Of a DNA stretch of 39,010 nucleotides, positions 3,443 to 36,556 are shown in pieces. The stretch covers positions 1-39,010 of the IMG/VR virus record IMGVR_UViG_3300038309_000064; one strand, 5' to 3'. Below the pieces are notes generated by a model. It did not search any database. It was not told where the DNA came from and saw nothing but the letters and a program-made list of their open reading frames with translations. Position 1 is the stretch's first letter. Every line of letters begins with the position of its first letter. The stretch comes from a virus. Both the position numbers and the translations under genes were made by a program.

Positions 3443-3928
3443 TTACTGACCCCTCTTATTTTGCTTCTTCAGTTTTTTATATATCCTTTCTTGATTAATA
3501 TATTCTTCATTAGTTCTTCCCCTTTTTCCGCTTCTTCCTTTTTCTCTTGTTATGGGAAGCTCTAATACTGTCTCTATTCTTTGATATTTAACTATCGAAT
3601 ATGGCAATATTGCTTTTAATAATGTTCTTGCTTTCTCTCCAGTTATTTGATATCTATGGCAAGGTCTCCATTTGCTATATTTAGATTCTTTTCTAACTAT
3701 ATATGAACATCCCGCTCCGATAGTATTTTTTAACCATTCAATTATATTTATATCAGTATTAACAATAATAAAAACCATTTGATAATCCTTTAAAAACATT
3801 TTAGATACAGAGTCCTTTTTTGATATTGTTACACAGCCATCTGCATCAAAAAATCCTGCTATATATGCTTTTTGCTCCTTACTTAGTTTGTTTATTTTTC
3901 CCTGTTTCATATTTTCTAAATAAAGCAT
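3443..3928 (-). CDS. LAGLIDADG homing endonuclease, single-motif
   Basis: 161 aa if read from the ATG at 3928, 155 aa from the ATG at 3910; the latter follows an A-rich stretch and lies just beyond the portal stop at 3916, so I prefer it. One LAGLIDADG motif (AYIAGFFDADGCV) near the N-terminus implies a homodimer. Later segments (VFIIVNTDINIIEWLK, RYQITGEKARTLLKAI, YSIVKYQRIETVLEL) follow the family pattern. It is a free-standing gene between portal and protease: both neighbours are full length, so it is neither an intron ORF nor an intein. It probably cleaves a related phage genome near this junction to spread. Confidence 0.92.
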   Translation of the reverse strand: MLYLENMKQGKINKLSKEQKAYIAGFFDADGCVTISKKDSVSKMFLKDYQMVFIIVNTDINIIEWLKNTIGAGCSYIVRKESKYSKWRPCHRYQITGEKARTLLKAILPYSIVKYQRIETVLELPITREKGRSGKRGRTNEEYINQERIYKKLKKQNKRGQ

Positions 3929-6021
3929 TCACACGAAATTACTTCTTCCGCTCCACCATTTGGATCTCCCGGAAACATTAATCCATTGCTAAATGCAGTG
4001 TCTATTGGTTTTTCCTCTCCATCCATTGCTTGGTGCCATTCTCTAACTCCTCCCTTTACTCCGGGAGCCCAAACCCAAATCTTTAAACCCAAGCCTGCCT
4101 GCTTATATCCTTGAATAGTGCCATATTGCATTACTCCGTGAGTTTCAGTCCTCGCTATTGTAGTAGCTCTACCCTTACTTATTCCATCATAAGTTTCCCT
4201 TATTCTATCAACCAGTTTGTCAGTTCCCTCTCCATCGCTAAAACTCTGCTCAAATTCACTTTTTAACTTATCAAAGGTTGTATCATTTATCTGCTTTGCG
4301 AATATATCTGTTTTTTTATCTAACCAACTTTGTATTTCTGCAGTTTCATTAAACTCCCAATCTGAACCGGCAATTTCTTTGCTATCTTTAGCGGCCTTAT
4401 TTAATAACTCGCTTAATATTGGCAAAATTGTATCTTTAGCAATTCTTATTTCTAGGGAGTGAGTAAAAACCTCTCCCAATAATTCTTTTTTAACTACGGC
4501 TGATTTTTGAGTTCTTATCTTGCTTAAAATTCTTTCCTCTTGCCCTTTAAAATATTTTTTGACCTCTCTTAAAACTAATTGAGAATTCCTATCTAATCTT
4601 TTTAATTGTAATGCATGATAAGCCTTTCTAATCTCCTTATTTCTCAATGGATGATATGACTTAGTTTTGCATGGCTTACTGCAAAGGCTCTCTGCTATCG
4701 CTACCGCCTGCTCTTGGCTCATCGATGGATCTTCCGCCATTATCTCAGGGATCTTTCTTGAAACACACTGTGCCTTTGTTTCATCACTTTGTCGACAAGC
4801 TGGCGATTTGGTAATTGTTTTCTTTTTGGTTGGTGTTATCGAGTTATCAACTCCCATCGGCACTAAATTCATTGGTACTAAAATATCATCTCCTCCTTTT
4901 ATCGGATCTAGCCCGAGCATCTCTCTTTTCTCATTAGTTGTCATTGCATTAATATTATTCGCTGTTTCTAGATCTTTTCTTTTATCTTCTTTATTTTCCG
5001 GTGTAGGATCAACGAAAGTTAACTCTAAATCTTCCGGGATTAAAACCTGATTTAGTTTCTCGCATAGATTTTTGCATAATGGATTTATTGTTTCCCGTAA
5101 GAATATTGCTATTGCCGCATCTGCATTTGCATAAGTTTCATCCGATGTAGATCCTAATATTGATTTTGGAACTCCAGTTAAAATCGCGATATCATTTAAC
5201 GTTACTTTCTTTGTTTCTAAATAAGCCATTTCCGCTGGTGTTAACGCCATTTTGTCATATTCCGCCTCTCCCCCTAAAAACATTGGCAAGCCGGATCTGC
5301 TAGCATTTCCGTATTCTTCCTGATATTTATCTTTTATTTCCTCTAACTGCTCCTTATTTAAAACTGATTTAAATTTAAATACTCCCTCAACTCTACCTCC
5401 ATTTTCCAATACCTTATTTTGATATTCATCAATTTGAGTAGATGTTTCTATTTGCCTAATTCCTGCTCTCATTAATGATTCTCCCCTTAATGGTGCTACC
5501 GGATCAGGATTATGTGCGTAAATTATCTCATCCGCCTGAAAAATCTTTGTGCCCTTTCCTGTTCGATATTCAACATTTATCAATTCTCCGGTTGCTTCGC
5601 TAAAGTTTGGCTTTACTAGATCACTCCTTAATATTTGTAATTCATTAATCCTATTTCCTCCACCCATTGTCATTTCCTTGTCTAGCAGAATATATACCTC
5701 TCCGAAAATATCGTAGTATTTTTGATATAAAGCCCAAAATTCCCTACCTGTGAAAACTTTACTGGGATTATAAAGCAATCCGAGAAGTTTATTATCTTCA
5801 ATAACCTTATCCCCTCTTTTTAAAATAAACTCTATTTCGCTAACCTTTTCCGCTCTTTTACTTATAGCCCTATTTGCATAAAGAGAAATCTCATAGGCAC
5901 TTAGATAATCTGACTTTGAATAATTTTTTTTATACTTTGAAAAAGGCAAAACAGAAATGCTAGAAAAAACATTATCTCCGCCTAAAAAATTCTTTATTCT
6001 GTTCCGAAAGTTTTTAAACAT
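3916..6021 (-). CDS. portal protein fused to MuF-type minor head protein
   Basis: 701 aa. Residues 1 to about 395 are an HK97-type portal (YDIFGEVYILLDKE; YAHNPDP; ILTGVPKSILG; TNEKREMLGLDPI), forming the dodecameric DNA channel. Residues about 405-451 form a separate small Cys-containing helical unit (CVSRKIPEIMAED, QEQAVAIAESLC) seen as a mobile unit in other phage head proteins. Residues about 455-701 are a MuF/SPP1 gp7-like minor head domain with RATTIARTETH, WHQAMDGE and a terminal ISCECFI. Such fusions occur in some phages but are not the rule. Start ATG follows the U-run of a terminator-like hairpin in the leader; the late promoter lies about 90 bases upstream. Confidence 0.94.
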   Translation of the reverse strand: MFKNFRNRIKNFLGGDNVFSSISVLPFSKYKKNYSKSDYLSAYEISLYANRAISKRAEKVSEIEFILKRGDKVIEDNKLLGLLYNPSKVFTGREFWALYQKYYDIFGEVYILLDKEMTMGGGNRINELQILRSDLVKPNFSEATGELINVEYRTGKGTKIFQADEIIYAHNPDPVAPLRGESLMRAGIRQIETSTQIDEYQNKVLENGGRVEGVFKFKSVLNKEQLEEIKDKYQEEYGNASRSGLPMFLGGEAEYDKMALTPAEMAYLETKKVTLNDIAILTGVPKSILGSTSDETYANADAAIAIFLRETINPLCKNLCEKLNQVLIPEDLELTFVDPTPENKEDKRKDLETANNINAMTTNEKREMLGLDPIKGGDDILVPMNLVPMGVDNSITPTKKKTITKSPACRQSDETKAQCVSRKIPEIMAEDPSMSQEQAVAIAESLCSKPCKTKSYHPLRNKEIRKAYHALQLKRLDRNSQLVLREVKKYFKGQEERILSKIRTQKSAVVKKELLGEVFTHSLEIRIAKDTILPILSELLNKAAKDSKEIAGSDWEFNETAEIQSWLDKKTDIFAKQINDTTFDKLKSEFEQSFSDGEGTDKLVDRIRETYDGISKGRATTIARTETHGVMQYGTIQGYKQAGLGLKIWVWAPGVKGGVREWHQAMDGEEKPIDTAFSNGLMFPGDPNGGAEEVISCECFI

Positions 6022-6278: not shown

Positions 6279-7538
6279 TTAAACAAATCCTATAAATCCA
6301 TCGCTTGATTTACCCTTAACCGCGTATCTAGTGGCGTCCATTAAGTGATTAAATTTATCAATTGCTTTATTAGTAGGCTCCTTATTACGATCCAACGCCC
6401 ATTTATATTCATGTGTTTCCATATCAATATTTCTGCTCGATTCAGTATAATGCACCACCTTACCTTTTAATGTATTTATACCGGCTCTAATACTGTCCGA
6501 TCCTTTTGGTGCTTTTCTAACATCCCACCCATCATCCCTTAATTCTCGAATACTTTTAGGCTCTTGCTCATCAGCATAAATAACATCAGTTTTTTTAATT
6601 CCAAGCACTTCAAACCTTTCCGATAATGAATTTCCTTTATTCCCAACATTAGTTAATCCAACCTCATAAAGTAATTCCCTTAGCCATATATTCTCATTAT
6701 GATTTTTAACTTCAACTAATGCAGCCGGATCTCCCGAAAATCCAAAGTCCAGTCCAAAATATCTAGGATAAGGCAATTCTTCAAATTCTGAGTCCTTAAT
6801 TATCTTCCAATCTGAAAAAATTCTACCTCTTGCTCCCTCGCTGACTAATCCGCAAATCATATTATAGTAATGATCCGGGTTTATCTCTTTATATTTTTTA
6901 TACCTATCAACTGTTTTCTGATTTAAATTCCTAATATTATCTAAAAATGTTCCATGTATATAAACTGCATCTGTTTCTGTACTTTTTAACTCAGCTTTGT
7001 AAAATCCCTCAACCTCTGCTTTTTTTAAATTAAACCATCTCTTAATAATCCAATGGTTCCTATCAGGCGGATTTAATAATAATATTATCGAGATGTCGGC
7101 CTTAACTGTTCTTAATGAATCGTCTAATTGCTGAAAATCCTCCTCTGCCACTTCATCAGCCTCCTCTATTATTATCGCATTATAACTAGCTAAGGATTTT
7201 AATTTGCTTTTCTGATCTTCGCTTGATTTTCTAAACCCTATCCCATTTATTTTGTTATTGCCATAATTAAATTCTAATCTATGATCGCTAATCTCAATCA
7301 TCCCCTCTAGTTCATTCTCCTCTAACCTATCCTTTATTTCTTGGAATATTGAATTTCTGATATCCCCTAAAACGAACCTCATTATTGCACACCGGAAATA
7401 GTTAGCGGATAGCAAATTGAGCATTGCGAATTGACTTGCGGCATAAGATCTTCCCGAAGCCCTACCACCCATGCAAATTACGTATCTAGCATTGTTAACG
7501 AATAATGGTTTATAAATTTTACTTGGTAATATCTTCAT
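6279..7538 (-). CDS. terL: terminase large subunit (PBSX/terminase_3 type)
   Basis: 419 aa, the DNA-packaging motor and nuclease. N-terminal ATPase: Walker A GGRASGRS (24-31), Walker B IIIEEAD (122-128), coupling motif LLLNPP (153-158). C-terminal RNase-H-like nuclease: GLDFGFSGD (D264), YADEQEP (D323), HLMDATRYA (D401) give the acidic triad. Length agrees with the PBSX family, many members of which package by headful; that fits the circularly permuted closure seen here. It overlaps the 3' end of terS by 20 bases in another frame. It has no SD; its start codon lies within the coding end of terS, implying translational coupling. Confidence 0.96.
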   Translation of the reverse strand: MKILPSKIYKPLFVNNARYVICMGGRASGRSYAASQFAMLNLLSANYFRCAIMRFVLGDIRNSIFQEIKDRLEENELEGMIEISDHRLEFNYGNNKINGIGFRKSSEDQKSKLKSLASYNAIIIEEADEVAEEDFQQLDDSLRTVKADISIILLLNPPDRNHWIIKRWFNLKKAEVEGFYKAELKSTETDAVYIHGTFLDNIRNLNQKTVDRYKKYKEINPDHYYNMICGLVSEGARGRIFSDWKIIKDSEFEELPYPRYFGLDFGFSGDPAALVEVKNHNENIWLRELLYEVGLTNVGNKGNSLSERFEVLGIKKTDVIYADEQEPKSIRELRDDGWDVRKAPKGSDSIRAGINTLKGKVVHYTESSRNIDMETHEYKWALDRNKEPTNKAIDKFNHLMDATRYAVKGKSSDGFIGFV

Positions 7539-7950: not shown

Positions 7951-7964
7951 TCATTCGCTTTAAT

Positions 7965-8585
7965 TTAATATATATTTCCATAATTTCTTCTAAAGTTTTT
8001 AATCTCTGAGACAATTCCTCTGGATATTCCATACTTTTTAGCTATATCCTTCCCCATCTCATATTTTAATTCTTCTCTTATTTTTAAAACTTTTTCCTTT
8101 GTAAGCTTTTTCATTCTTTTATTTTTACTTTGCTCTAATATCGTAATCCATTTACAATTATCCTTACAATAATTTCCATTATTATCAATTCTTTCTATAG
8201 TCAATGGGTATCTATAAGAAACAAACATATCTCTTTTAAAGTTTTCAAAATTATTCCATTCTTTGCAAATAGTAATTCCCCTCCCACCATAATTACGATA
8301 CTCTTTAGCATTTTTATTATAACACCTTACTCTCATTCCTTTCCATATTTTATAAAATCTTGTTCGAGACATTCCATGTGTTTTTTTTGACTTACCTATT
8401 TTTGATAATTTATTATTCCTTGTGCATCCACAACTCTTACAGCTTCCGTTTTTTAAGTTGCTCCCTCTTGTTATTTTTATGTTCCCGCACTTACAAATAC
8501 ATTTAAAATATCGAATCCCTTTTATTTTATTTTCTTCACTTAATACCTTTAATTTTCCGAATCTATTTCCAATTAAATTATTCAT
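7965..8585 (-). CDS. AP2/HNH-type homing endonuclease
   Basis: 206 aa, a free-standing mobile gene between an unknown gene and terS. The N-terminal zinc-binding module has CICKCGN and CKSCGC (residues about 29-54), a central part THGMSRTRFYKIW...YGGRGITICKEW (about 69-112) and ERIDNNGNYCKDNCKW (about 131-146) with the histidine-poor HNH-like active site typical of this phage family. The C-terminal 45 residues are a helix-turn-helix-like DNA-binding tail (KDIAKKYGISRGIVSEIK). Location beside terS is a common insertion place, since terminase DNA is conserved among related phages. Confidence 0.88.
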   Translation of the reverse strand: MNNLIGNRFGKLKVLSEENKIKGIRYFKCICKCGNIKITRGSNLKNGSCKSCGCTRNNKLSKIGKSKKTHGMSRTRFYKIWKGMRVRCYNKNAKEYRNYGGRGITICKEWNNFENFKRDMFVSYRYPLTIERIDNNGNYCKDNCKWITILEQSKNKRMKKLTKEKVLKIREELKYEMGKDIAKKYGISRGIVSEIKNFRRNYGNIY

Positions 8586-8634
8586 ATATTTGCCGGATGC
8601 TTTTTTGCATTTCTTGGATAAGGTTTTATTTTAT

Positions 8635-9060
8635 CTATTGCAATGCTTTCCATATTCTTTTAAATATATTTCTTTTACTTAAATTATAAGCTATTAATGC
8701 ATCTGTTAGTTTCATATAATCTGCTATTTTCATTTGATTAAAATCAAAACCAAAATTTGCTAGTATATAAGTTCTCATTTCATTAACCTTAGCTTCTCTT
8801 TTCATAGCCGTTTCGATCAATTCCGGGTATTTCTTTTTCAATGCATCACAAACATCTCCCCTAAGCCCGGTAATTCTTAACTCCTCCCATAAATATTTTT
8901 CTTGGATTTTTTCTTTTTTCTTTTTCCCTCTTTTAATTTCTAATTCATCCTCATTATTGAGCATAGCTTTTTTATAAAGCAAGCTCTCTCTCCCTAATAA
9001 TTCATCTACTTCTTCATTTAATTGATAGATTTTTTCTATCACTTCGTTGTTTTTTGCCAT
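8635..9060 (-). CDS. unknown protein upstream of terminase
   Basis: 141 aa, not recognised. The first 65 residues are highly charged and helical (coiled-coil likely: IEKIYQLNEEVDELLGRESLLYKK is read in two heptad-rich stretches). The second half has GLRGDVCDALKKKYPELIETA and ends in a basic helix (LSKRNIFKRIWKALQ). It overlaps the start of the preceding small gene's stop by 22 bases and is separated from terS only by the endonuclease, so before that insertion it was probably adjacent to terS. A packaging role is possible but only inferred from position. Confidence 0.6.
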   Translation of the reverse strand: MAKNNEVIEKIYQLNEEVDELLGRESLLYKKAMLNNEDELEIKRGKKKKEKIQEKYLWEELRITGLRGDVCDALKKKYPELIETAMKREAKVNEMRTYILANFGFDFNQMKIADYMKLTDALIAYNLSKRNIFKRIWKALQ

Positions 9061-9263
9061 GGATTTTTTTTATAAAAATAATAATTAATGCTTGTATTTT
9101 TTACATCTCCCTTTACTACTAGCTTTGGATTCTTTCTAACTACATCCCAAATAGCAGAAAATACTTGATCTAGGTAGTCGGGATCATTAAGCCTTTCCTT
9201 GCTTGTTATCCTCACCTTACCTAAAACATCATCTCTGCAGATATACTCCCATTTTGTTTTCAT
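9039..9263 (-). CDS. 74-aa unknown protein
   Basis: The start is either the ATG at 9284, which ATGA-overlaps the glycosyltransferase stop (giving 81 aa with MIFEERK in front), or the ATG at 9263, preceded by GAGAGG three bases upstream. I prefer 9263 for the product (MKTKWEYICRDDVLGKVRI), but coupling from 9284 is equally plausible. It contains Trp-rich segments (FSAIWDVVRKNPK, FYKKNPWQK) and no recognisable domain. It overlaps the start of the next gene by 22 bases, so it belongs to the same operon. Confidence 0.6.
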   Translation of the reverse strand: MKTKWEYICRDDVLGKVRITSKERLNDPDYLDQVFSAIWDVVRKNPKLVVKGDVKNTSINYYFYKKNPWQKTTK

Positions 9264-9280
9264 TTTCCTCTCTTCGAAAA

Positions 9281-10066
9281 TCATATTGCTATATTTAAAC
9301 TATTTTCTCGGTATCTTATAATTTTATCTCCCTCAATTTCAACGCAATTTCCATTCTGATATTTAAATTTTTTAGCCCCTAAATCCTCTAATGCTATTTT
9401 CCAAAACTCATCTCTACCTTTTAATGCCTGATAATTTCTAGAGTTATTTTTCTTGTTATCTATGATTTTAACTTCGGGAGTAAACACTATCTTATTTTTA
9501 ACCCTGTAGAAGAAGTGCTGGTGTTCTCTTAATTTTAATTCATTATGCCATAAAGTATCTTCAAAAACAATTTCTTTTGCTAGGAAAAAATTTAATACGC
9601 ACCCAGTTTTTTTAAATTTAATTCCATTATAAAATTCATATAAATCCCAATCCGGTATCTGATAAATAGTTTCAAATTCTTTTTTAAAATAATGCTCAAA
9701 TTTTAATCTTCTGCCATCTTTTATCACTGCTCCCCCGATAATATCCCCAACATCTACTAATGCCAACATTTTTTCGATAACTGTATCATGAGTAAAAAGA
9801 AAATCATCCTCTAATATTAATTTATATGGCTGTTTTGTTTCTTTAACTAAAACATTTCTAGCAAAAGATAATCCGCAATCATAAGGCAATGGGAAAACTC
9901 TCAAATTCCTATCTTTCCATTTCATGTAAAACTCTGTATTAATGTCCTTGCTTTGATCCGCTATTGTTATTATCGCATTCGGATAATATACAAAAATGCT
10001 ATCTAGAAGTTCTTCCAATAGATTATACCGATCCATTGTCGTAATTAGAAAATCAACTTTTTCCAT
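9281..10066 (-). CDS. glycosyltransferase, GT-A fold, beta-GalNAc-transferase-like
   Basis: 261 aa. GT2-like fold: LITTMDRYNLLEELLDSI (7-24), then PYDCGLSFARN (61-71) and the metal/nucleotide motif EDDF (86-89), then WHNELKLREHQHFFYRV (about 193-209) where the Glu-His pair matches the catalytic-base region of beta-1,4-GalNAc transferases (B4GALNT/GT12-like, EDDF or DDDF plus GEHxxFF). No signal or membrane segment. It is the last of four sugar genes; an HNH gene separates it from the epimerase. Together they suggest building of a GalNAc/Gal-containing glycan; acceptor unknown (virion protein, host surface or DNA). Confidence 0.82.
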   Translation of the reverse strand: MEKVDFLITTMDRYNLLEELLDSIFVYYPNAIITIADQSKDINTEFYMKWKDRNLRVFPLPYDCGLSFARNVLVKETKQPYKLILEDDFLFTHDTVIEKMLALVDVGDIIGGAVIKDGRRLKFEHYFKKEFETIYQIPDWDLYEFYNGIKFKKTGCVLNFFLAKEIVFEDTLWHNELKLREHQHFFYRVKNKIVFTPEVKIIDNKKNNSRNYQALKGRDEFWKIALEDLGAKKFKYQNGNCVEIEGDKIIRYRENSLNIAI

Positions 10067-10102
10067 TGCATTTTTCTTTAATATATTTAATTACATCTAT
10101 TC

Positions 10103-10564
10103 TTAAATATGTTTCCACCTTTGTTTTTTTATAATCATTCTTATGGTGTTATAATTGACACCATATTCTTTTCCCAACATTGTTAATTCTCCGTGTTTTC
10201 CTTTGTATTTTTTTCTTATTTCAATAACTTTTTCTTCTGTCAATTTTGATTGATGATTTTTTATGCCATGTTGGTTATGGTTTCTTTTCCTTAAATATAT
10301 ATCCCTAATATTATCCTTTTGTGTTCCCAAGTATAAATGGTCTGGGTTGCTACAAATAGGATTATCACATTTATGTAAAACTAATTTTCCTTTTGGTATT
10401 TTTCCTTTATAAATCCTCCAAGAAACTCTATGGGCTCTATCCATTTTTCCTCCTGACTTCATAAACCCATAACCAAAATGAGCTTTAGCACCATTCCACC
10501 CCCAACACCCTTTTTTCCTTATAACGTGGCGGTTAAATATTATTTTTTCATTTGTGATTGACAT
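10103..10564 (-). CDS. HNH homing endonuclease
   Basis: 153 aa. N-terminal CWGWNGAKAHFGYGFMKSGG and HRVSWRIYKGKIPKGKLVLH, then HKCDNPICSNPDHLYLGTQ (residues about 64-82) form the HNH_3-type nuclease; DNIRD follows as in relatives. The C-terminal 45 residues look like a DNA-binding helix-turn-helix (LTMLGKEYGVNYNTIRMI). It overlaps the end of the epimerase gene by 25 bases in another frame and splits the sugar cassette. The epimerase ends in unstructured KNKCQSQMKK, so insertion may have replaced its original last residues. Confidence 0.88.
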   Translation of the reverse strand: MSITNEKIIFNRHVIRKKGCWGWNGAKAHFGYGFMKSGGKMDRAHRVSWRIYKGKIPKGKLVLHKCDNPICSNPDHLYLGTQKDNIRDIYLRKRNHNQHGIKNHQSKLTEEKVIEIRKKYKGKHGELTMLGKEYGVNYNTIRMIIKKQRWKHI

Positions 10565-11295
10565 TTATTTTTTATATAGCTTATTACATCAATTTCAGGA
10601 TACCAACTATGTTTTATTTTGTCAATCTTTGGCGTGGTATTTCTTAAAATAACGCTTCCTTTATCTCCATTCCTTTTTGGAAGATATTCTATTTTCTTTC
10701 CGGTCGCTTTCGCTATTTCATTAATTGATATTCCCTTACCGCTTCCGCATTCATAGGTTCCCATATCCCAATTTTTCGCTAGAATTAAACAATTTACTAT
10801 ATCATCAATATTCACAAAATCTCTTTTTTGAGTGCCATCTCCGAAAATGCAACACTTTTTATTTCTTATAAATGTATCGACTACTCCCTTTGGCTTATCC
10901 CCATAAATCGAACTTAATCTTAAAATCACATAATCATTGCAAAGCATTTTTATATACTTTTCGCATGCTTGCTTACTTAATCCATAAGGACTATTCGCTT
11001 TTCCAATCGCTGCCCCGGATGTGGTAAATATAAGTTTAGCATTATATTTATTGGCTATTTCTATCGCTTTTAATGTTCCTAAAATATTTTGTCTAGCATC
11101 ATTTATTGGATCATCTACTGATTCAGGAACTCCACTTTGAGCGGCTAAATGATATAAATAAAATGGCTTTTCTTTAAAATCATAACTTAAAATATCTCTG
11201 CCGATTTTTAAATCAATTTCAAATATTGTATCATCTATCGCTTTGACTAATTTAGATCCAATGTACCCTCGCGATCCGCTAATTAGATATATCAT
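10540..11295 (-). CDS. NAD-dependent epimerase/dehydratase (GalE-like extended SDR)
   Basis: 251 aa. Rossmann motif GSRGYIG (7-13), substrate/NAD contacts HLAAQSG (49-55), catalytic TTSGA with Ser93 and YGLSK (Tyr104, Lys108), and KRDFVNIDDIV (157-167). It is short for a GalE-type protein (usually about 310-340 aa): the loop between the cofactor and substrate domains is trimmed. Likely reaction: C4 epimerisation of a UDP-sugar (Glc/Gal or GlcNAc/GalNAc), or another nucleotide-sugar conversion. Sitting next to a GT6 and two GT2-like transferases, it would supply their donor. Start overlaps the end of the GT6 gene by 17 bases; a GalE-like reductase such as RfbD is the alternative. Confidence 0.84.
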   Translation of the reverse strand: MIYLISGSRGYIGSKLVKAIDDTIFEIDLKIGRDILSYDFKEKPFYLYHLAAQSGVPESVDDPINDARQNILGTLKAIEIANKYNAKLIFTTSGAAIGKANSPYGLSKQACEKYIKMLCNDYVILRLSSIYGDKPKGVVDTFIRNKKCCIFGDGTQKRDFVNIDDIVNCLILAKNWDMGTYECGSGKGISINEIAKATGKKIEYLPKRNGDKGSVILRNTTPKIDKIKHSWYPEIDVISYIKNKCQSQMKK

Positions 11296-12079
11296 CTCTA
11301 GTTATATTATCCCAATTAATAACATAATCTTCCTTATTTATATTCATATTTCTCATTGCATCTTCTTTATAAACTTGTTTAAATTGCTTTTCATGGTGCA
11401 TGATAAACGGGATAAAATATTTATTTCCCTCCGGGCACATATAATTTGGAGGCAATACTAGCGTAGGTGGATTATCTATGAAGTATCTATTAACGTGGCT
11501 TTCATCTCCCCAAATAGCCCTAATTCCATTTTCAATATCAATTCTAATATTGGCAGAAACTGTCTCAAGCATTTCTTTAAAATGTTCTATTCTCCCACCA
11601 ACAAAACCGCATGCATAATATTGATCTCCCTCATCACTTGAAACATAAGCGGTTGATTCAATTCTTTTTTCATAATTAAAATCCTTTCTTCTTCTCATTA
11701 TATTTCTATGCAATGTAGCAACTCGATAACTTAATATTTCATTTGTTATCGGAACCATTATCTCAGCCTCAGAATCTAAAATAAATAAATAGTTTTCCTT
11801 ATAAATGCTTTTATAATGATTTAATAATTCAAATCTTAATAATGGCATTTTAGGCCATCCTAAATGCGGAGTGTAAATTGTAGTAATCTCATTATAGCTT
11901 TCATAATTTTCGGGACTATCAGTAAATAAATAAATGTGAGCAGGAAACTTATCTTTTACACTAGAAATTAATCTTGGTATAAATTGATTATATTCTCCAG
12001 TCGCTACCACTATTAATCCAACGTTATGAAATCCTGATCTTTTTGAAACTACCAGATGTTTATTGATTTTATTTTCCAT
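11279..12079 (-). CDS. GT6 family glycosyltransferase (ABO blood-group-like)
   Basis: 266 aa, GT-A fold retaining transferase. GT6 signatures in order: YLFTD (50-54), GWPKMPLLRFE (74-84), LDSEAEI (101-107) at the DxD site, ATLH (His124), DEGDQYYACGFVGG (149-162), NGIRAIWGDESHVNRYF (184-200) with the catalytic Glu193, PTLVLPPNY (205-213) and MRN near the C-terminus. Human ABO enzymes have DVD at the metal site; here it is D-S-E; bacterial GT6 enzymes mostly have NxN. The residues equivalent to ABO 266 and 268 are Ala and Gly; Gly at 268 is found in GalNAc-using enzymes. No stem or membrane helix. GT6 is rare in phages. Overlaps the upstream GT gene by 31 bases and the epimerase by 17. Confidence 0.92.
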   Translation of the reverse strand: MENKINKHLVVSKRSGFHNVGLIVVATGEYNQFIPRLISSVKDKFPAHIYLFTDSPENYESYNEITTIYTPHLGWPKMPLLRFELLNHYKSIYKENYLFILDSEAEIMVPITNEILSYRVATLHRNIMRRRKDFNYEKRIESTAYVSSDEGDQYYACGFVGGRIEHFKEMLETVSANIRIDIENGIRAIWGDESHVNRYFIDNPPTLVLPPNYMCPEGNKYFIPFIMHHEKQFKQVYKEDAMRNMNINKEDYVINWDNITRDDISN

Positions 12080-12807
12080 TTTTTTAATAATTTATCATGA
12101 TTAGGGAAATGTCTAAATCTTTTTTTCTTATAATAATCAGGCATTTCTATGTCATGTTTTAAATGATAAACCTCGCTATCCGGCGTATAAAAAACATTTA
12201 ATCCTAACTTCTTAGCCTCTAAAAAGAAATCAGGATGTAGCCCATCTCCGAAGCTATATCTTTCATCAAACCATAATCCCTTTTCTGTAAAAGCTTTTCT
12301 CTTAGCGATCCAGCAATTAGGAACTATATCTACTTTTCTGAATTTCATTCCGTTATGATCAATCCATTCGCTAGTAGGCTCAACGAAATCTATTTTATCG
12401 GGATAGATTTTAGCTTCATATATAAAAGGCGAAACTACTTTTTTTGAAACTACCTTAATTCCAACGATATCAGCATTATTTTTTTCCATAAAATCAATCA
12501 CTTCATCCAATTTTATTTTTTCCGAAATTATGAAATCATCGTCAAAGTGTAAAATATAATCTCCATTTCCATAAGCTATCATGCAATTTTTAGTTTTAGC
12601 AAGTGTAGTATCAAATCCGAAGTCAAACCAATTAAAATTATTGTAATGTTCTCTGAGTTTTATTTTCTCTATCGGCCTAGTGTCGCCTATAAATACATCA
12701 ATTAAGCCCCTTGACCTATAAGCATTTAATGCACATAGCGTTTCTTCTAGCATCTCATCTCTAAAAAAAGTTGTGTGTAGAATTACATCTACGCTTTTTA
12801 TATCCAT
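12049..12807 (-). CDS. glycosyltransferase family 2-like
   Basis: 252 aa, soluble GT-A fold. Strand and donor motif VDVILHTTFFRDEMLEETL (6-24), DVFIGDTRP (37-45), FDTTLAKTKN (65-74), and the metal-binding HFDDDF (87-92). The C-terminal part has NCWIAKRKAF, FGDGLHPDFFLEAKKLGL and EVYHLKHD, similar to GT2/GT27 and LicD-linked polypeptide sugar enzymes that place an E/D-x-FF near the acceptor. First of four sugar genes. A 13-codon upstream ORF (12798-12839) overlaps its start codon, and a hairpin (12846-12875) precedes it, so its expression may be controlled at leader level. Confidence 0.85.
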   Translation of the reverse strand: MDIKSVDVILHTTFFRDEMLEETLCALNAYRSRGLIDVFIGDTRPIEKIKLREHYNNFNWFDFGFDTTLAKTKNCMIAYGNGDYILHFDDDFIISEKIKLDEVIDFMEKNNADIVGIKVVSKKVVSPFIYEAKIYPDKIDFVEPTSEWIDHNGMKFRKVDIVPNCWIAKRKAFTEKGLWFDERYSFGDGLHPDFFLEAKKLGLNVFYTPDSEVYHLKHDIEMPDYYKKKRFRHFPNHDKLLKKWKIKSINIW

Positions 12808-12839: not shown

Positions 12840-12845
12840 TTTTTT

Positions 12846-12880
12846 ATAGGGCTAATATTTTTTTATCAGCCCTATTTTTT
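12846..12880 (+). terminator. intrinsic terminator facing against all genes
   Basis: Plus strand: ATAGGGCT (12846-12853) pairs with AGCCCTAT (12868-12875), loop 14, followed by six T (12875-12880). Read on the gene strand the same stem is flanked by A runs, so it is not a terminator there. It would stop antisense transcription entering the zinc-ribbon gene, whose stop lies in the stem. Confidence 0.5.
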
Positions 12881-13045
12881 AGATTTACATTCTTCGCATT
12901 TAATGCGATTATCGCCTTTTGTTTCGAAAGAAAAATAAAACTTCTTAACATTTTCTTTACCGCAAAAGTCGCACTTTAGCCCGAAATCTTTTTTGTCCAA
13001 AAGTATTACTTCTCTACATTTTGGGCAAGTAATGTAATCTGCCAT
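12872..13045 (-). CDS. 57-aa multi-zinc-ribbon protein
   Basis: Three CxxC pairs (ITCPKC, LKCDFC, IKCEEC) suggest one or two small zinc ribbons; the first two pairs form a classic ribbon, the third is spare or pairs in a dimer. It has a near-perfect SD (AGGAGG, five bases before ATG), unlike most genes here, and begins ten bases after the DUF1617-like gene. Such ribbons in phages serve as nucleic-acid or RNA-polymerase binding adaptors, but no specific role can be read from the sequence. Confidence 0.68.
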   Translation of the reverse strand: MADYITCPKCREVILLDKKDFGLKCDFCGKENVKKFYFSFETKGDNRIKCEECKSKK

Positions 13046-13054
13046 TTAAGCCTC

Positions 13055-13426
13055 CTATTCTTCGATTAGTTTAAAAATACCAGTGAGTTGAGCTGTGGTT
13101 ATATCCTCGGGTACTTCTTTTTCTTTTATCTTATGAAAACTATTTATGTTCACGTCCTTATTCTCAATATTCATCAATTCGTCATAATCTTTATTCATCT
13201 TATCCTGATCTTTCATTTCAATTCTATTGTTTTTAATAATCATTTTACCGCTTTCATCTTTTTTCGCATTTTCCTCTTGTAATTTTTTTACCTGATCATT
13301 TATGTCCTTAATCAAAACTTCTAGCTTTGATTTATTTTTTGCCAAAGCATAGGCAAATTTTATCCCCTTTAGGTTTCCGCAAGCCATGATCGCTTGGTGT
13401 AGTTCTAATATTTCTTTATTAGTCAT
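13055..13426 (-). CDS. DUF1617-like phage protein
   Basis: 123 aa. The opening MTNKEILELHQAI...GNLKGIKFAYALAKNKSKL, the acidic/basic coiled-coil centre, then DYDELMN and a C-terminal LTGIFKLIEE agree with the small DUF1617 family known from siphoviruses of Firmicutes, function unknown. Almost no Cys and no membrane segment. It is the first gene after the structured intergenic region 13459-13571 and begins a run containing the zinc ribbon and the sugar cassette. The family call is from memory of the pattern only. Confidence 0.55.
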   Translation of the reverse strand: MTNKEILELHQAIMACGNLKGIKFAYALAKNKSKLEVLIKDINDQVKKLQEENAKKDESGKMIIKNNRIEMKDQDKMNKDYDELMNIENKDVNINSFHKIKEKEVPEDITTAQLTGIFKLIEE

Positions 13427-17918: not shown

Positions 17919-18353
17919 TTACTTCTTTTCGATTAGTTTAATTCCATGGCATTTACCATGAATAGATCCGTGCTTTTTTCTACTTATTACTTTTAAATTT
18001 TCTATTCTATTGTCAAGCTTATCACCGTTTATATGATGTATTGTTTCATTATATTTTAATTTTCTATGTAAATGTTTTTCCATTATTACTCTATGCTCAA
18101 GCTTAATCTTTCCATTTATATACATTGCCCTATATCCTTGCGAATTTATAGTTCCCCCTTTATATAATTTATTACTTATCTTTTTTTTAGTTTCTTCGCT
18201 ATGCTTTTTACCCTTTCTTTTCTCAGACATCTTTTTTTTAGTTTCTTCGCTATGCTTTTTACCATTCATCCATTTTCCAAATCCTTTTTCTTTGGCAATA
18301 ATAGACATCTTCTTTTTTATTTTTTCTGTTCTTTTATATACTCCAGAAGTCAT
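17919..18353 (-). CDS. NUMOD3/HNH homing endonuclease
   Basis: 144 aa. Two NUMOD3 DNA-binding repeats (GKKHSEETKKKMSEKRK and GKKHSEETKKKISNK, 17 residues apart) precede an HNH nuclease: LEHRVIMEKHLHRKL, TIHHINGDKLDNRIENL (residues about 104-120). The repeated DNA (18181-18212 and 18232-18263) is nearly identical, hinting at recent duplication. Free-standing in the early operon between two unknown genes; no intron ends seen. Confidence 0.9.
   Translation of the reverse strand: MTSGVYKRTEKIKKKMSIIAKEKGFGKWMNGKKHSEETKKKMSEKRKGKKHSEETKKKISNKLYKGGTINSQGYRAMYINGKIKLEHRVIMEKHLHRKLKYNETIHHINGDKLDNRIENLKVISRKKHGSIHGKCHGIKLIEKK
18181..18263. repeat. 51-bp-spaced direct repeat (NUMOD3 units)
   Basis: A 32-base identical block starts at 18181 and again at 18232 (offset 51 = 17 codons), inside the endonuclease gene. 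Identity including silent sites points to recent tandem duplication of the DNA-binding unit. Confidence 0.85.
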
Positions 18354-21979: not shown

Positions 21980-22375
21980 TCAAATAATTTCTAAAAGTGT
22001 GTTACTCTTTCCCATATTGCAGTCCTTACAAGCCGTTTTGAAATTATCCATAATGTTTTTTCCACCCTTCGACCTTGGGTGTATATGATCTATTTCTAAA
22101 ATTACATCAGGAGCTTTTCTTCCACAATATTGACAGGTAAATGCATCTCTCTTTAGGATATCGAATCTTAATTTTAGTGGTTTATGATTTTTTCTAGGTC
22201 GATATTTGTAGGTAAATTTTCTTAACTTTCCTCTCTCTTTTTCGCACTCTTTGCACCTGTAAGAATATCCCAGCCTTCCATTTTTACTTTTAATAAATGT
22301 TTTGTCATTAAGTGGTAATATTCTTTTACAAATATAACACCTCCTTTTTCCTAATTTGTATAAATGCTTCCCCAT
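21980..22375 (-). CDS. HNH endonuclease
   Basis: 131 aa. N-terminal zinc module CYICKRILPL...YRCKECEKERGK (residues about 13-47), then the HNH core: FTCQYCGRKAPDVILEIDHI followed by HPRSKGGKNIMDNF and ACKDCNMGK. Typical free-standing phage HNH of the group with N-terminal C4 ribbon. It is the first gene behind the early promoter and structured leader. It may be a homing enzyme, or a domestic nickase helping replication or packaging; the position near the origin allows either. Confidence 0.9.
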   Translation of the reverse strand: MGKHLYKLGKRRCYICKRILPLNDKTFIKSKNGRLGYSYRCKECEKERGKLRKFTYKYRPRKNHKPLKLRFDILKRDAFTCQYCGRKAPDVILEIDHIHPRSKGGKNIMDNFKTACKDCNMGKSNTLLEII

Positions 22376-22867: not shown

Positions 22868-23475
22868 AGTTTTAACTTAATAATTAACCATCTAAATATC
22901 TTCTTTATTATCTCTGCTATTATATTTGCTTTCTTGCTTATATTTTCCTCCTCCGGCTCAGAATTTCCACTCGCTGGCTCCTCTTGACCGGAAATGGGTA
23001 TTTCTACCATTTCGCTATCTTCTTCGCTCTCAGGCTCATTTTGAGCCTGTATTTCAAAATCTCTAATCCTGAAGTTTATCGTTACACCTAAATCATCGGC
23101 TACTGACTTGGCATAATTCATTGGATAATTACCATCAGAACTAGGAGCATATTTTCCGTAAAACTCCAAGAGTGTCATTTCGGGGGTATAACTTCTTAAT
23201 TCTCCAAGGCAAGCCCAAGTTAAAAATTTAACTAAAGCATTAAATCCTTTTTCGTAAGTATCCCATTTTGCAAATCTTCCGTCAGATTCTACTTTTGCCC
23301 CAAGATAATCTCTCGTGAAAGAATTATAAATTAAATTTCCGGGATTATTGTTTCGATAGCTTCGAGAACCCTCGTACCAGCCCTCGTGACGCATTGTGCA
23401 ATAAGCCCATTTTTCTATGCCACTCAATTTATTCCAATCATCACCACATATTGATACTGTTTTTGGTTTATCCAT
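22864..23475 (-). CDS. lysozyme-like endolysin with C-terminal amphipathic helix
   Basis: 203 aa. The first 140 residues look like a lysozyme-superfamily peptidoglycan hydrolase: RHEGW (Glu31 as likely catalytic acid), SRSYRNNNPGNLIYN (about 37-51; NNPGN motif), DGRFAKWDTYEKGFNALVKF. Then a Glu/Ser/Pro-rich linker (about 142-180) and a hydrophobic-basic end (IIAEIIKKIFRWLIIKLKL) able to act on membranes like known amphipathic endolysin tails. Just before the holin-like gene; starts inside the preceding HNH gene's last codons. Whether it is secreted by the holin is inferred. Confidence 0.75.
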   Translation of the reverse strand: MDKPKTVSICGDDWNKLSGIEKWAYCTMRHEGWYEGSRSYRNNNPGNLIYNSFTRDYLGAKVESDGRFAKWDTYEKGFNALVKFLTWACLGELRSYTPEMTLLEFYGKYAPSSDGNYPMNYAKSVADDLGVTINFRIRDFEIQAQNEPESEEDSEMVEIPISGQEEPASGNSEPEEENISKKANIIAEIIKKIFRWLIIKLKL

Positions 23476-23992
23476 TTTTTTTATAAAAATTTATTATTGT
23501 ATGATGAGATGAAACATTTAATTTTTTTGCTATCTTCCTAAAAGACATTCCGCTTTTTAAATATTTTTTAATCTCACATATATCAAAACTATATTTTCCA
23601 AATTTCTTAAAATTATTTTTAATGTCGTATCTGGTGTGGCATCTTGGACATAAAGAAATATAATCTTCTAAGTTTCTTTTATATTTATGGTCTACATTAG
23701 CCCATTGAATTCTTTTTTTATCTCCACAAATACTGCATATTTTTGCCTTTCCCTTATGTTTTTTTACCCATTCGTGAATTGCTCCATATTTAGCCTTATT
23801 TCCTTTCCAATTTGGTGATTTATCATCTTCTTTTCCAAACATTGGATTTAATTTTCCTCCTTTAAATCCATTCCCGTTACCTTTTAATTCAACTAATTTT
23901 CTTCTTATCTCTGGTCTAGCCATAGCTTCTTTTGTAGCCTTACTTATTTTATCTTTTAGCCATTGAGGTTTTTTGCCGTATCTTTTATCCAT
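23468..23992 (-). CDS. HNH endonuclease with N-terminal NUMOD-like and C-terminal HTH parts
   Basis: 174 aa. N-terminal helical DNA-binding part (KPQWLKDKISKATKEAMARP) and NPMFGKEDDKSPNWKGNKAK, a NUMOD3-related pattern; HNH core ICSICGDKKRIQWANVDHKY followed by RNLEDYISLCPRCHTRYD; C-terminal helix-turn-helix (GMSFRKIAKKLNVSSHHTII). Inserted between C39-like peptidase and endolysin, so it splits the lysis block. Last eight bases overlap the endolysin start. Confidence 0.9.
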   Translation of the reverse strand: MDKRYGKKPQWLKDKISKATKEAMARPEIRRKLVELKGNGNGFKGGKLNPMFGKEDDKSPNWKGNKAKYGAIHEWVKKHKGKAKICSICGDKKRIQWANVDHKYKRNLEDYISLCPRCHTRYDIKNNFKKFGKYSFDICEIKKYLKSGMSFRKIAKKLNVSSHHTIINFYKKNG

Positions 23993-29434: not shown

Positions 29435-29776
29435 TTATTGACTTGTAATTGTTATATCTCTTTTCACTTTGAAAATATCCTTAACTAGAGTTACAATAAT
29501 CCCTCCCGATGTTTTCATTTGTATATCATAATGATATAGTCCGGGAGTTAAATTCATCTCAGAATTAGGTATAGTTATAGTAGTAATTCCCTGTGTTGGG
29601 TTTGTATGCGACTCTACCTTTTTTTGAATCAATGCTTCTGCATCGGTATCATCTTCATTGGTCTTAACAGTAAGCCAAAATGTATATCCAGTTATATTAA
29701 CTACGGATCCATCATTAGTTATTGTTATAGGTATTACGGCATCATCCCCTCTAAATACATTTAAAATGTGTGACAT
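29435..29776 (-). CDS. baseplate upper protein N-domain-like (BppU)
   Basis: 113 aa. FRGDDAVIPITITNDGSVVN then ITGYTFWLTVKTNEDDTDAE and GLYHYDIQMKTSGGIIVTLV match the N-terminal fold of lactococcal BppU and related attachment proteins that join the fibre to the tail tip. It is a single-domain version, directly before the fibre gene, consistent with an adaptor. Start ATG follows AATAAT; its stop lies one base before the fibre ATG region. Confidence 0.75.
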   Translation of the reverse strand: MSHILNVFRGDDAVIPITITNDGSVVNITGYTFWLTVKTNEDDTDAEALIQKKVESHTNPTQGITTITIPNSEMNLTPGLYHYDIQMKTSGGIIVTLVKDIFKVKRDITITSQ

Positions 29777-34822: not shown

Positions 34823-36556
34823 TTATAATCTTAATCTTCTTCTTATTTCATCGCTTAAAAGATCCGCTAATTTAACACTAGCATTCCTATCTAAAAGCAT
34901 TGGGTAATTTACATTAACAACTACTCCTGAGCCTCCGGCACCAGCAGCAGACAATGTTCCGGGTGTTTTAGTAGCTATTAAATAGTCGGACGGATCTGTT
35001 TGTATAACATCTCCCTGAGGAGTAATTACCGCATCATTTATTCTTGTAATTTTTCCTAAGAATGAATCCCTAAATCCAACTCCGATCGATTCTAGGAGCC
35101 CCATTTTACTTAATCTCTCTGCTTTATCAGCAAGTTCATCATATTGATCAATCGCATTTTTTAGATTTACATTAGCGGCTTCATTACTTAATTCGCCTAT
35201 TTTTTTTCTAGCCTGATCGATCATATCGTTCGTTTGCTGTAGCGATGTTTTAATTTCTTCTTGTGCTTGTTTCAAATCTCCCCATGCGTCTATAGCACCG
35301 ACAATAGCCACCGTTGCAAGAGTGGTAAGAACTGCTATTAATCCAACCGGACTCAATAATAATCCTGTCATAGTACTAATTCCGCCCGATACTAATCCGA
35401 ATGCTGGTATTAATGCAGAAACTACATCTGCGATAGACATTGCAAGTTTTAATGCCTCCCAAGCAGCAACTAAAAATATAATTGCTTTTCTATGATCCCA
35501 AATAAATGAAGTCAATGATATTACTATACCGATTAAATCATTTATTTTATTCCAAACATCTTCTAATATTTTTTTTAACCCCTCTGTTCCCCCAATACTT
35601 TCATACCATTCTTTTATCTTATCTATCGCATTCTGAATTGCTCTTTTAGAAAAATCTATTATCGCTTGTTTATTTCTATCAACCCAGTCTAGTAATCCTT
35701 TTAATGCATTTTTTGCTATATCAAAAGCACCTGATTCCTCAGCGATATCAGAAGTTAAAACAGTAAAGTTATCTTTCATATTTGAAACAAGCTGATTGAA
35801 AGTTCCCGCTTGATCTGCAAAAGCATTAGCAAATCTTCCTCCGTCTTTTCCTGCTTTTTCAAACATATCAGTAAGCACTTTAAATGATATCTCTCCGTTA
35901 GATATCATGTCATTCAAAGCCTCACCACTTTTTCCCGTTGCCTCTTGGAGCATCTCAAAAATAGGTATTCCTGCGAAAGCAAATTGTTTTATGTCTAGCA
36001 TTGACGCATGTCCAACTGCTCCAATTTGTTGTAGGTTTACAATTATTCTATCTAATTCTTCCTGACCCTTTCCCATTGCAGATAATGCCTTACCAACATT
36101 TAATAATATCCCTTCTGACTTTCCTGCATCATGAGTAACCGCTGTTAAAAGTTTATTAGCTTGAATTAACCCCGGTAATTCAAACGGGGTGGTTGCCGCA
36201 TCTTTTTTTATCATTTCTATTGCTGCGTCTGCCTGCTCTACACTTCCCAATAATGTTTTAAATGCCATTCTTTCCTGCTCTAAATTAGCCGCGGTTTTTA
36301 TTGCTGTTACTCCTATACCAACCGCAGCAGCAGAAAATCCTATGGCTGCGTATTTAGCATAATCAAAAGCTTTCCCAAGTATATTTAACTCGGTAGAAAA
36401 TCTGTTTTTTAAGGTATTGGATAGTGAAGTCGCGGATTGCTCCCCATCTCTAAATCGATTGGATAAATTACTTAGGGTTGATCCAACACTTCTTAATTCA
36501 CTAGATGCTTGATCCTTTAATTTTAATATTAAGTCTAGTTCCCTTGTTTCAGCCAT
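34823..36556 (-). CDS. tape measure protein
   Basis: 577 aa. N-terminal ELDLILKLKDQASSELRSVG and QADAAIEMIKKDAATTPFEL belong to the tape measure family (DQAS..L and TPFeL motifs). Central IGAVGHASMLDIKQFAFAGI is the standard 'G..s..dl.qf.g.gip' segment. Residues about 355-430 hold membrane-like helices that may help DNA entry. Length suggests a tail of roughly 85-90 nm by the usual 0.15 nm per residue rule (inference). Starts eight bases inside the T frame of the chaperone. Confidence 0.92.
   Translation of the reverse strand: MAETRELDLILKLKDQASSELRSVGSTLSNLSNRFRDGEQSATSLSNTLKNRFSTELNILGKAFDYAKYAAIGFSAAAVGIGVTAIKTAANLEQERMAFKTLLGSVEQADAAIEMIKKDAATTPFELPGLIQANKLLTAVTHDAGKSEGILLNVGKALSAMGKGQEELDRIIVNLQQIGAVGHASMLDIKQFAFAGIPIFEMLQEATGKSGEALNDMISNGEISFKVLTDMFEKAGKDGGRFANAFADQAGTFNQLVSNMKDNFTVLTSDIAEESGAFDIAKNALKGLLDWVDRNKQAIIDFSKRAIQNAIDKIKEWYESIGGTEGLKKILEDVWNKINDLIGIVISLTSFIWDHRKAIIFLVAAWEALKLAMSIADVVSALIPAFGLVSGGISTMTGLLLSPVGLIAVLTTLATVAIVGAIDAWGDLKQAQEEIKTSLQQTNDMIDQARKKIGELSNEAANVNLKNAIDQYDELADKAERLSKMGLLESIGVGFRDSFLGKITRINDAVITPQGDVIQTDPSDYLIATKTPGTLSAAGAGGSGVVVNVNYPMLLDRNASVKLADLLSDEIRRRLRL

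Follow-up and report, generated by a model that had tools for sequence, protein, structure and literature searches.

What does a small phage make with a run of four sugar genes next to its terminase? We ask this of IMG/VR record IMGVR_UViG_3300038309_000064, a siphophage record of 39,010 bases (hereafter the window, meaning the whole stretch) that IMG/VR classes as 'linear' and in which we find no end repeats. Four open reading frames (ORFs) on the minus strand read from 12807 to 9281 in the order GTA, GT6, EPI and GTB: a first glycosyltransferase (GT), an enzyme of family GT6, a nucleotide-sugar epimerase and a last glycosyltransferase. An original prediction, made from the letters of the window alone, had placed four sugar genes here, and all four are found, on the minus strand and with Pfam matches that exceed the curated cut-offs, so the sugar-gene calls are not due to chance. 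Judged from gene content and order in related phages, the cassette is one allele of a conserved modular island that lies upstream of the terminase in a clade of small siphophages. We give roughly even chances to the proposal that this is a glycan-synthesis island by which these phages glycosylate their own virions.

The island is best seen by comparing related phage records, which carry labels such as L002; the relatives found through the terminase large subunit (TerL) are L002-L040. They are frequently fragments, so absences among them carry little weight. The site of the island is fixed: upstream of the terminase, between orf13055-like and orf9039/orf8635-like genes, with DNA-metabolism genes on its other side. 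In the window, the left border ORF (13055-13426, minus strand) is 47% identical to L004 3341-3697. The right border is a small conserved ORF directly after GTB (9039-9284, minus strand), with homologues in the same place in L002, L004, L005 and L022. Next to it is orf8635 (8635-9060, minus strand), which encodes a conserved all-helical protein of about 140 residues with a small hairpin, as seen in an alignment of 13 homologues. Its structural model has a pLDDT of 89.9, and a fold search against the PDB gives no match below E 0.3. An orf8635 homologue is present downstream of GTB in every relative read that far. If only TerL relatives whose upstream sequence was read for more than 5 kb are counted, GTB together with an orf8635 homologue occurs in 8 (L002, L004, L011, L012, L014, L015, L022 and L024) and in none of another 9 (L023, L025, L027-L029, L033, L034, L036 and L037), whose terminases are mostly more distant; the upstream sequence of L025 is too short to decide, and its close relative L024 has the island approximately 8.7 kb upstream. 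The GTA-GTB core and the genes that border it keep recurring in relatives with as little as about 50% TerL identity.

Around this core the content changes from phage to phage. GTA and GTB are fused into one protein of 515-560 residues in at least nine relatives (L002, L011, L042, L046, L053, L064, L065, L066 and L067), and they are separate genes in L022. In L004 the layout is GTA, EPI, GTB, and in the window, L014 and L101 it is GTA, GT6, EPI, GTB. The interchangeable genes around the pair are a LicD/FKRP-like transferase, a CDP-glycerol synthase, methyltransferases, epimerases and GT6. LicD (PF04991) is present in most island alleles, and its profile matches human FKRP at 3.6e-10. A TagD-like glycerol-3-phosphate cytidylyltransferase occurs in several alleles (TIGR01518 at 5e-43 and 4e-46, just below the strict cut-off), and several also carry methyltransferases and a DUF2334-like protein. 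A tblastn search of cultured phages with the LicD of L004 gives no match. In L004 the orf13055 homologue stands directly before LicD and TagD, neither of which the window has. Where L004 has LicD, TagD, a methyltransferase and a DUF2334 gene, the window has between orf13055 and GTA only an ORF of 57 residues (12872-13045, minus strand), which we read from the sequence as a CxxC-type zinc ribbon and which has no Pfam match. The original prediction had the genes of the cassette right, and the modular island with its LicD/TagD alleles lay beyond its view.

Fused proteins tie these activities together in more distant phages, which we reached by a scan with a GTB alignment. In L084, an ORF of 865 residues (7959-10556) matches PF00535, PF04991, PF01467 and PF00535 in turn, that is, a GT, a LicD, a cytidylyltransferase and another GT. 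By island profiles, L081 (whose fused protein, like that of L084, has about 860-870 residues) and L082 have the same domain order, and L088 and L096 (62-1903) have a LicD-TagD-GT form of 613 residues. The presence of GT, LicD and TagD-type domains in a single polypeptide is strong evidence that the activities serve one pathway. The fusion gene of L084 lies between a neck gene (phrog_5) and the genes for the tail terminator and the major tail protein, and in cultured Salinibacter phages the GTB homologue (1.3e-33 by hidden Markov model) follows the major head protein with one gene in between. Two further observations concern these distant loci. The LicD-cytidylyltransferase-GT2 fusion in L096 also adjoins tail genes. 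In the Salinibacter ruber M8 phage 4_2 (OR896287; L099 8363-10116), an unannotated gene comes directly after the major head protein and is followed by the GTB homologue; its N-terminus resembles by eye a sulfotransferase site for 3'-phosphoadenosine-5'-phosphosulfate, with no Pfam match, and similar genes are found in more than 170 Salinibacter phage records.

GTB (9281-10066, minus strand; PF00535 5.6e-8), the most conserved enzyme of the island, is a soluble GT12-like (B4GALNT1-like) transferase with the motifs EDDF and REHQHFF. As a single sequence in phmmer its sole match is B4GALNT1 (1.6e-6), and a family profile of ten members reaches human B4GALNT1 at 5.7e-22. For its AlphaFold model (pLDDT 91.6), the top four Foldseek chains are all B4GALNT1 (E 7e-18, TM 0.76), and the next entry, at about 2e-10, falls about seven orders of magnitude behind. 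The likeness of the last transferase to beta-GalNAc transferases, which had been proposed together with a structure prediction of 9281-10066 as its check, is borne out by profile and fold alike, the best fold match being a GT12 enzyme. We write 'GT12-like' and not 'GT12': B4GALNT1 is the closest solved relative by sequence and by predicted fold, and donor and linkage are predicted. GTA (12049-12807, minus strand; PF00535 6.3e-8), the first gene of the cassette, encodes a soluble transferase of GT-A fold that is divergent in the window, with 19-24% identity to its positional homologues. A profile of those homologues matches B4GALNT1 at 1.7e-23 and then TagF; the window GTA alone matches B4GALNT1 weakly (0.0063). 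None of GTA, GT6, EPI and GTB has a membrane helix by hydropathy (top 19-residue mean 1.48), which agrees with the earlier statement that all the enzymes are soluble.

The GT6 gene (11279-12079, minus strand) encodes a glycosyltransferase of the ABO/BoGT6a family. PF03414 matches at 5.8e-32, with 111 bits against a cut-off of 25, and the best solved relatives in the PDB are BoGT6a (1.1e-31) and the human ABO transferase (6e-26), which confirms the family assigned before. Against NF041524 it reaches 6.2e-42, but its 143.7 bits are below the subfamily cut-off of 250. Aligned to BoGT6a, it keeps the WGDES block and the C-terminal HHEK231 (Lys231 of BoGT6a). At three places the active site departs from the family: DSE replaces DXD, WGDES replaces WHDES, and YYACGFVGG replaces the commoner YYAGGFNGG. 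The enzyme has neither the DXD (metal-dependent) nor the NXN (metal-independent) motif. In BoGT6a the NXN motif pairs with metal independence, and residues of the protein itself stand in for the metal (PMC3961637). Used as a single query against IMG/VR, the window GT6 gives zero matches; the phage relatives were recovered with an alignment query instead, which yields 212 confirmed GT6 stretches in phage contigs. Among 71 distinct GT6 sequences from phages, DXD occurs in 67, NXN in one (as NAN) and DSE in three, and the combination of DSE, WGDES and YYACGFVGG occurs only in the window, L014 and L101, the copies in the two related phages being 62% and 61% identical to that of the window. From these motifs, the window GT6 is best placed in a divergent GT6-like sub-clade and not among the standard GT6 enzymes.

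Because the active-site motifs diverge, neither metal use nor donor choice can be assumed for this sub-clade. Of the ABO-type core described originally, the DES block holds; the canonical DXD is missing, with DSE in its place. The transfer of Gal or GalNAc that was taken as established is not directly transferable to an enzyme that differs at three active-site positions from other phage GT6. As for a 'blood-group-like glycan', the product is unsupported, and we have dropped the literal blood-group reading, as there is neither a fucosyltransferase nor any acceptor evidence. A look at the neighbours of GT6 in other phages, also suggested earlier, shows that, of the 79 phage loci kept, 68 have a homologue of the epimerase no further than about 7 kb away; we give this association little weight because the profile catches many short-chain dehydrogenases/reductases (SDRs) and large phages are rich in sugar genes. 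L014 (2118-3239) and L101 (3963-5078) have an extra, longer epimerase/dehydratase (371-373 residues) further upstream that is missing in the window.

EPI (10540-11295, minus strand) is a short SDR nucleotide-sugar epimerase/dehydratase of 251 residues (PF01370 1.2e-26). It matches phrog_540 (9.7e-40) and Thermotoga GalE 4zrm (6.2e-26), and it has both SDR signatures, GxxGxxG as GSRGYIG and YxxxK as YGLSK. It fails the curated GalE model TIGR01179, with 62.8 bits versus a cut-off of 262.3; the call of a nucleotide-sugar epimerase stands, and the formation of UDP-Gal(NAc) proposed with it is an activity the enzyme may have. The L004 copy, 60% identical, lies between GTA and GTB, has no endonuclease there, and ends KIDVIQYIKEKCRT, directly overlapping the GTB start. 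In the window the sugar genes are not strictly consecutive, as had been thought: an HNH_3 endonuclease ORF (10103-10564, minus strand; PF13392 1e-11, phrog_1872 9e-31) separates the epimerase from GTB. The ORF is a mobile element that has settled in the EPI 3' end; it does not belong to the pathway and is similar at the DNA level to cyanophage and Bacillus phage endonuclease genes. In a DNA-level search of cultured phages, the endonuclease core alone matched. The window EPI now ends ...EIDVISYIKNKCQSQMKK, and behind the endonuclease there is a diverged, orphan second epimerase C-terminus (10053-10103, minus strand; ...RIDVIKYIKEKCNGKS, in translation I-D-V-I-K-Y-I-K-E-K-C-N-G-K-S-stop) that runs into the start of GTB, reaching its start codon. 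Comparison with L004 makes the orphan tail appear to be a remnant of an uninterrupted EPI-GTB junction, and the mobile element appears to have entered that junction when it was intact. The element would have brought a substitute tail that kept the EPI frame open. Altogether the 39 kb hold at least six homing-endonuclease-like ORFs of LAGLIDADG, HNH and NUMOD3 types, several of which adjoin packaging or sugar genes (3443-3928, 7965-8585, 10103-10564, 17919-18353, 21980-22375 and 23468-23992; some are recognized by eye only, 7965-8585 and 23468-23992 among them).

The gene ends overlap by 31 bases between GTA and GT6 and by 17 bases between GT6 and EPI, which suggests translational coupling. Promoter and terminator scans of the locus give results at chance level only, and because of that we build no operon claim on them. 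Just upstream of GTA there is a perfect 12-bp hairpin (12840-12876), in a stretch that folds at -16.7 kcal/mol and has no T-run on the gene strand; it is possibly a regulatory or processing structure.

How might such a cassette work? Drawing on the host pool of UDP-sugars, EPI would make a 4-epimer, in the simplest case UDP-GalNAc or UDP-Gal. GTA and GTB, both of GT-A fold and GT12/B4GALNT type, would start and extend a short chain, attached either to a structural protein itself or to a first sugar made by the host, and GT6 would add a further alpha-linked sugar, probably a terminal one. Glycosylation would take place in the cytoplasm, by soluble enzymes and with no lipid carrier, during head and tail assembly. 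In sister phages, the LicD/FKRP-like phosphotransferase would take the capping place, using CDP-glycerol from the TagD-like enzyme. Which sugars are used, in what order the enzymes act, which protein is the acceptor and what the phage gains (a shield, or a change in adsorption or stability) are all inferred. What we find in the genomes is a set of soluble GT genes linked to morphogenesis genes and free of membrane partners. No lipid-carrier gene is found. In the window and 13 related phages (14 phage records), GtrA (PF04138) and thymidylate synthase/hydroxymethylase (PF00303) are each found in none, and an integrase is found in one, which is not the window. The window has neither a GtrA flippase nor an integrase, and its cassette has no membrane helix; for this reason it does not have the makings of gtrABC-type serotype conversion. 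With no gene for a lipid carrier, a flippase or base hydroxymethylation, virion glycosylation is the best explanation, and the modular island alleles with LicD/TagD, together with the distant relatives in head and tail operons, shift the weight further towards virion decoration. A virion glycan was one of several roles offered by the original prediction, and it is the one we favour, from synteny, fusions and the lack of membrane and base-modifying genes. There is precedent in mycobacteriophages Che8, Corndog and Myrna, whose GTs glycosylate capsid and tail-tube proteins (Freeman et al. 2023, as related in PMC12363180 and PMC11256854).

Several points weigh on the other side. A glycosylated virion protein has been seen in no phage of the clade, and the island of the clade itself precedes the terminase at the border of the DNA-metabolism genes, outside the head-tail block. 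The GT6-epimerase clusters of large cyanophages are commonly taken as lipopolysaccharide-type. Lipid-linked precursors made by the host are also within reach of a soluble enzyme, and no polypeptide:glycosyl primer enzyme was singled out. Profile and fold similarity to B4GALNT1, at about 20% identity, is not proof of UDP-GalNAc use or of a linkage.

The serious rival is modification of the host surface, in which sugars (or, in sister phages, glycerol phosphate) placed on a host polysaccharide or teichoic-acid precursor keep rival phages or released progeny from adsorbing. In their classical settings LicD and TagD belong to teichoic-acid and phosphocholine pathways, the LicD of one gut phage family has been interpreted in this way (PMC8008677), P-SSM2 has a GT6 within a large sugar cluster, and the strong differences between island alleles of sister phages look like an arms race. 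We nevertheless consider this rival unlikely, while keeping it in serious contention: the cassette lacks a GtrA-like flippase, a priming transferase and any membrane protein, an integrase in only one of the 14 records makes lysogenic conversion unlikely, and the distant homologues sit inside head and tail operons. The solubility of every cassette enzyme would suit an intracellular target, a host protein or metabolite modified for takeover or counter-defence and not part of virion or surface, and some phage transferases do modify host enzymes. A multi-step pathway that makes its own donor and runs through several transferases and caps is more machinery than one inactivating modification should need, though, and the synteny is with morphogenesis genes, which makes such a target improbable in our estimate.

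We rate lower again the idea that the island is recently gained host cargo that drifts as a moron with no settled function and is retained by chance. Its content does vary, and homing endonucleases do invade the locus (the HNH gene at 10103-10564 and the endonuclease-like ORF at 7965-8585), but the GTA-GTB core and its borders recur to about 50% TerL identity, the GC and the third-position GC (GC3) of the cassette match the phage, the catalytic motifs are intact, and the epimerase frame is still open after the endonuclease insertion. Lowest of all we place DNA glycosylation, in which the transferases would put sugars on modified phage bases against nucleases. It is a role often assigned to phage GTs (e.g. 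PMC10202952), and the island does adjoin DNA-metabolism genes, yet a thymidylate-synthase-type hydroxymethylase is absent from the window and the 13 related records, Pfam scans of the window proteins show none of the known base-hypermodification enzymes, and the nearest relatives are enzymes of protein and lipid glycans (B4GALNT1, BoGT6a, FKRP) and not DNA glucosyltransferases.

Phage GT6 enzymes, which are common in phage contigs and have P-SSM2 as a named precedent, are already known, and so are phage virion glycosylation and LicD in one phage group (PMC8008677). In the literature, of which we covered few subscription papers, we find no phage island that joins GT12-like transferases, LicD and CDP-glycerol synthesis, and no report of GT6 as an interchangeable part of such an island; the GT12/LicD/TagD island appears to be undescribed. 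A bolder extension, which we hold only tentatively and think more doubtful than virion glycosylation itself, is that these islands are a widespread new class of phage cytoplasmic protein-glycosylation machines, in which B4GALNT-like GTs, a fukutin/LicD phosphotransferase and a CDP-glycerol synthase build capped GalNAc-type glycans on head or tail proteins. The caps would be glycerol phosphate, or a sugar added by GT6 in the variant of the window, and sister phages would swap them as serotypes are swapped, so that teichoic-acid and dystroglycan chemistry would have its counterpart on the virion. If so, many small uncultured phages own a swappable kit for coating their particles with sugar, with enzymes from families best known in animal glycans (ABO, GM2 synthase, FKRP) and in teichoic acids. 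This would explain why sister phages differ at exactly the island locus and would point to 'serotypes' of virions with an effect on how they adsorb, how stable they are or how they are recognized; the enzymes, being small and soluble, could then serve as models of GT12 and FKRP-type chemistry.

The remaining landmarks of the window lie on the minus strand: the major head protein (1239-2618), the portal (3916-6021), the terminase large subunit (6279-7538) and the tape measure (34823-36556). At 29435-29776, beside a LamG-rich tail protein of 1525 residues, an ORF matches the BppU N-terminal domain (PF10651, 1.9e-5) and is a possible receptor-binding part of the baseplate. For the host, the TerL profile has three matches in genome records: a Fermentibacteria-binned contig of 35.9 kb, a Chryseobacterium, and a prophage in a Moraniibacteriota contig. 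The first equals virus record L068 in size and is possibly misbinned. The last, JALVQA010000006.1 (Moraniibacteriota, Patescibacteria; L054, L180, L181), has a prophage-like region with an integrase, tail genes and a terminase that shares 58% identity with that of the window. Host genes flank the region next to the integrase, and its opposite end has Cas4-Cas1-Cas2-like genes, a protein of 1346 residues with a Cas12f-like domain, and a CRISPR array of nine repeats. We assign no host from these matches, as such a TerL occurs in only one of 380 Moraniibacteriota genomes and the CRISPR spacers of the prophage match no phage here.

How does the island compare with known systems? The Prochlorococcus phage P-SSM2 also has a GT6 (PSSM2_268) beside a nucleotide-sugar epimerase (PSSM2_270), GT2-type transferases and a methyltransferase, in the cluster PSSM2_260-271. 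Unlike the window, P-SSM2 is a myovirus of 252 kb whose cluster is not beside the terminase and in which the GTA-GTB pair is not detected, and its GT6, about 35% identical to ours, has a canonical DVD motif. With BoGT6a, ABO and alpha-1,3-galactosyltransferase, the window GT6 shares the fold family, the D-E-S block and the C-terminal Lys231 (PMC3961637); it differs in having DSE where they have DXD or NXN, Gly for His before DES and a YYACGFVGG pocket, and in being soluble, with no stem or membrane anchor. GTB aligns with human B4GALNT1 (GT12) in the aspartate triad and the H-x-x-FF region, but is a single GT-A domain of 261 residues, 21-24% identical, lacking stem, membrane anchor and extra N-terminal domain. 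The gut 'Flandersviridae' phages also have a LicD-family enzyme, paired there with IspD in the replication module, with no transferase island described (PMC8008677). As in the teichoic-acid and dystroglycan systems, where LicD/FKRP and TagD act, sister phages of the window carry LicD and a glycerol-3-phosphate cytidylyltransferase at the same site; unlike in those systems, phage LicD and TagD are sometimes one chain with two GTs, and the window has neither. Finally, the window resembles Che8, Corndog and Myrna in encoding its own transferases with a proposed role in capsid or tail decoration (Freeman et al. 2023, through PMC12363180 and PMC11256854), and differs from them in having several transferases together with donor-making genes.

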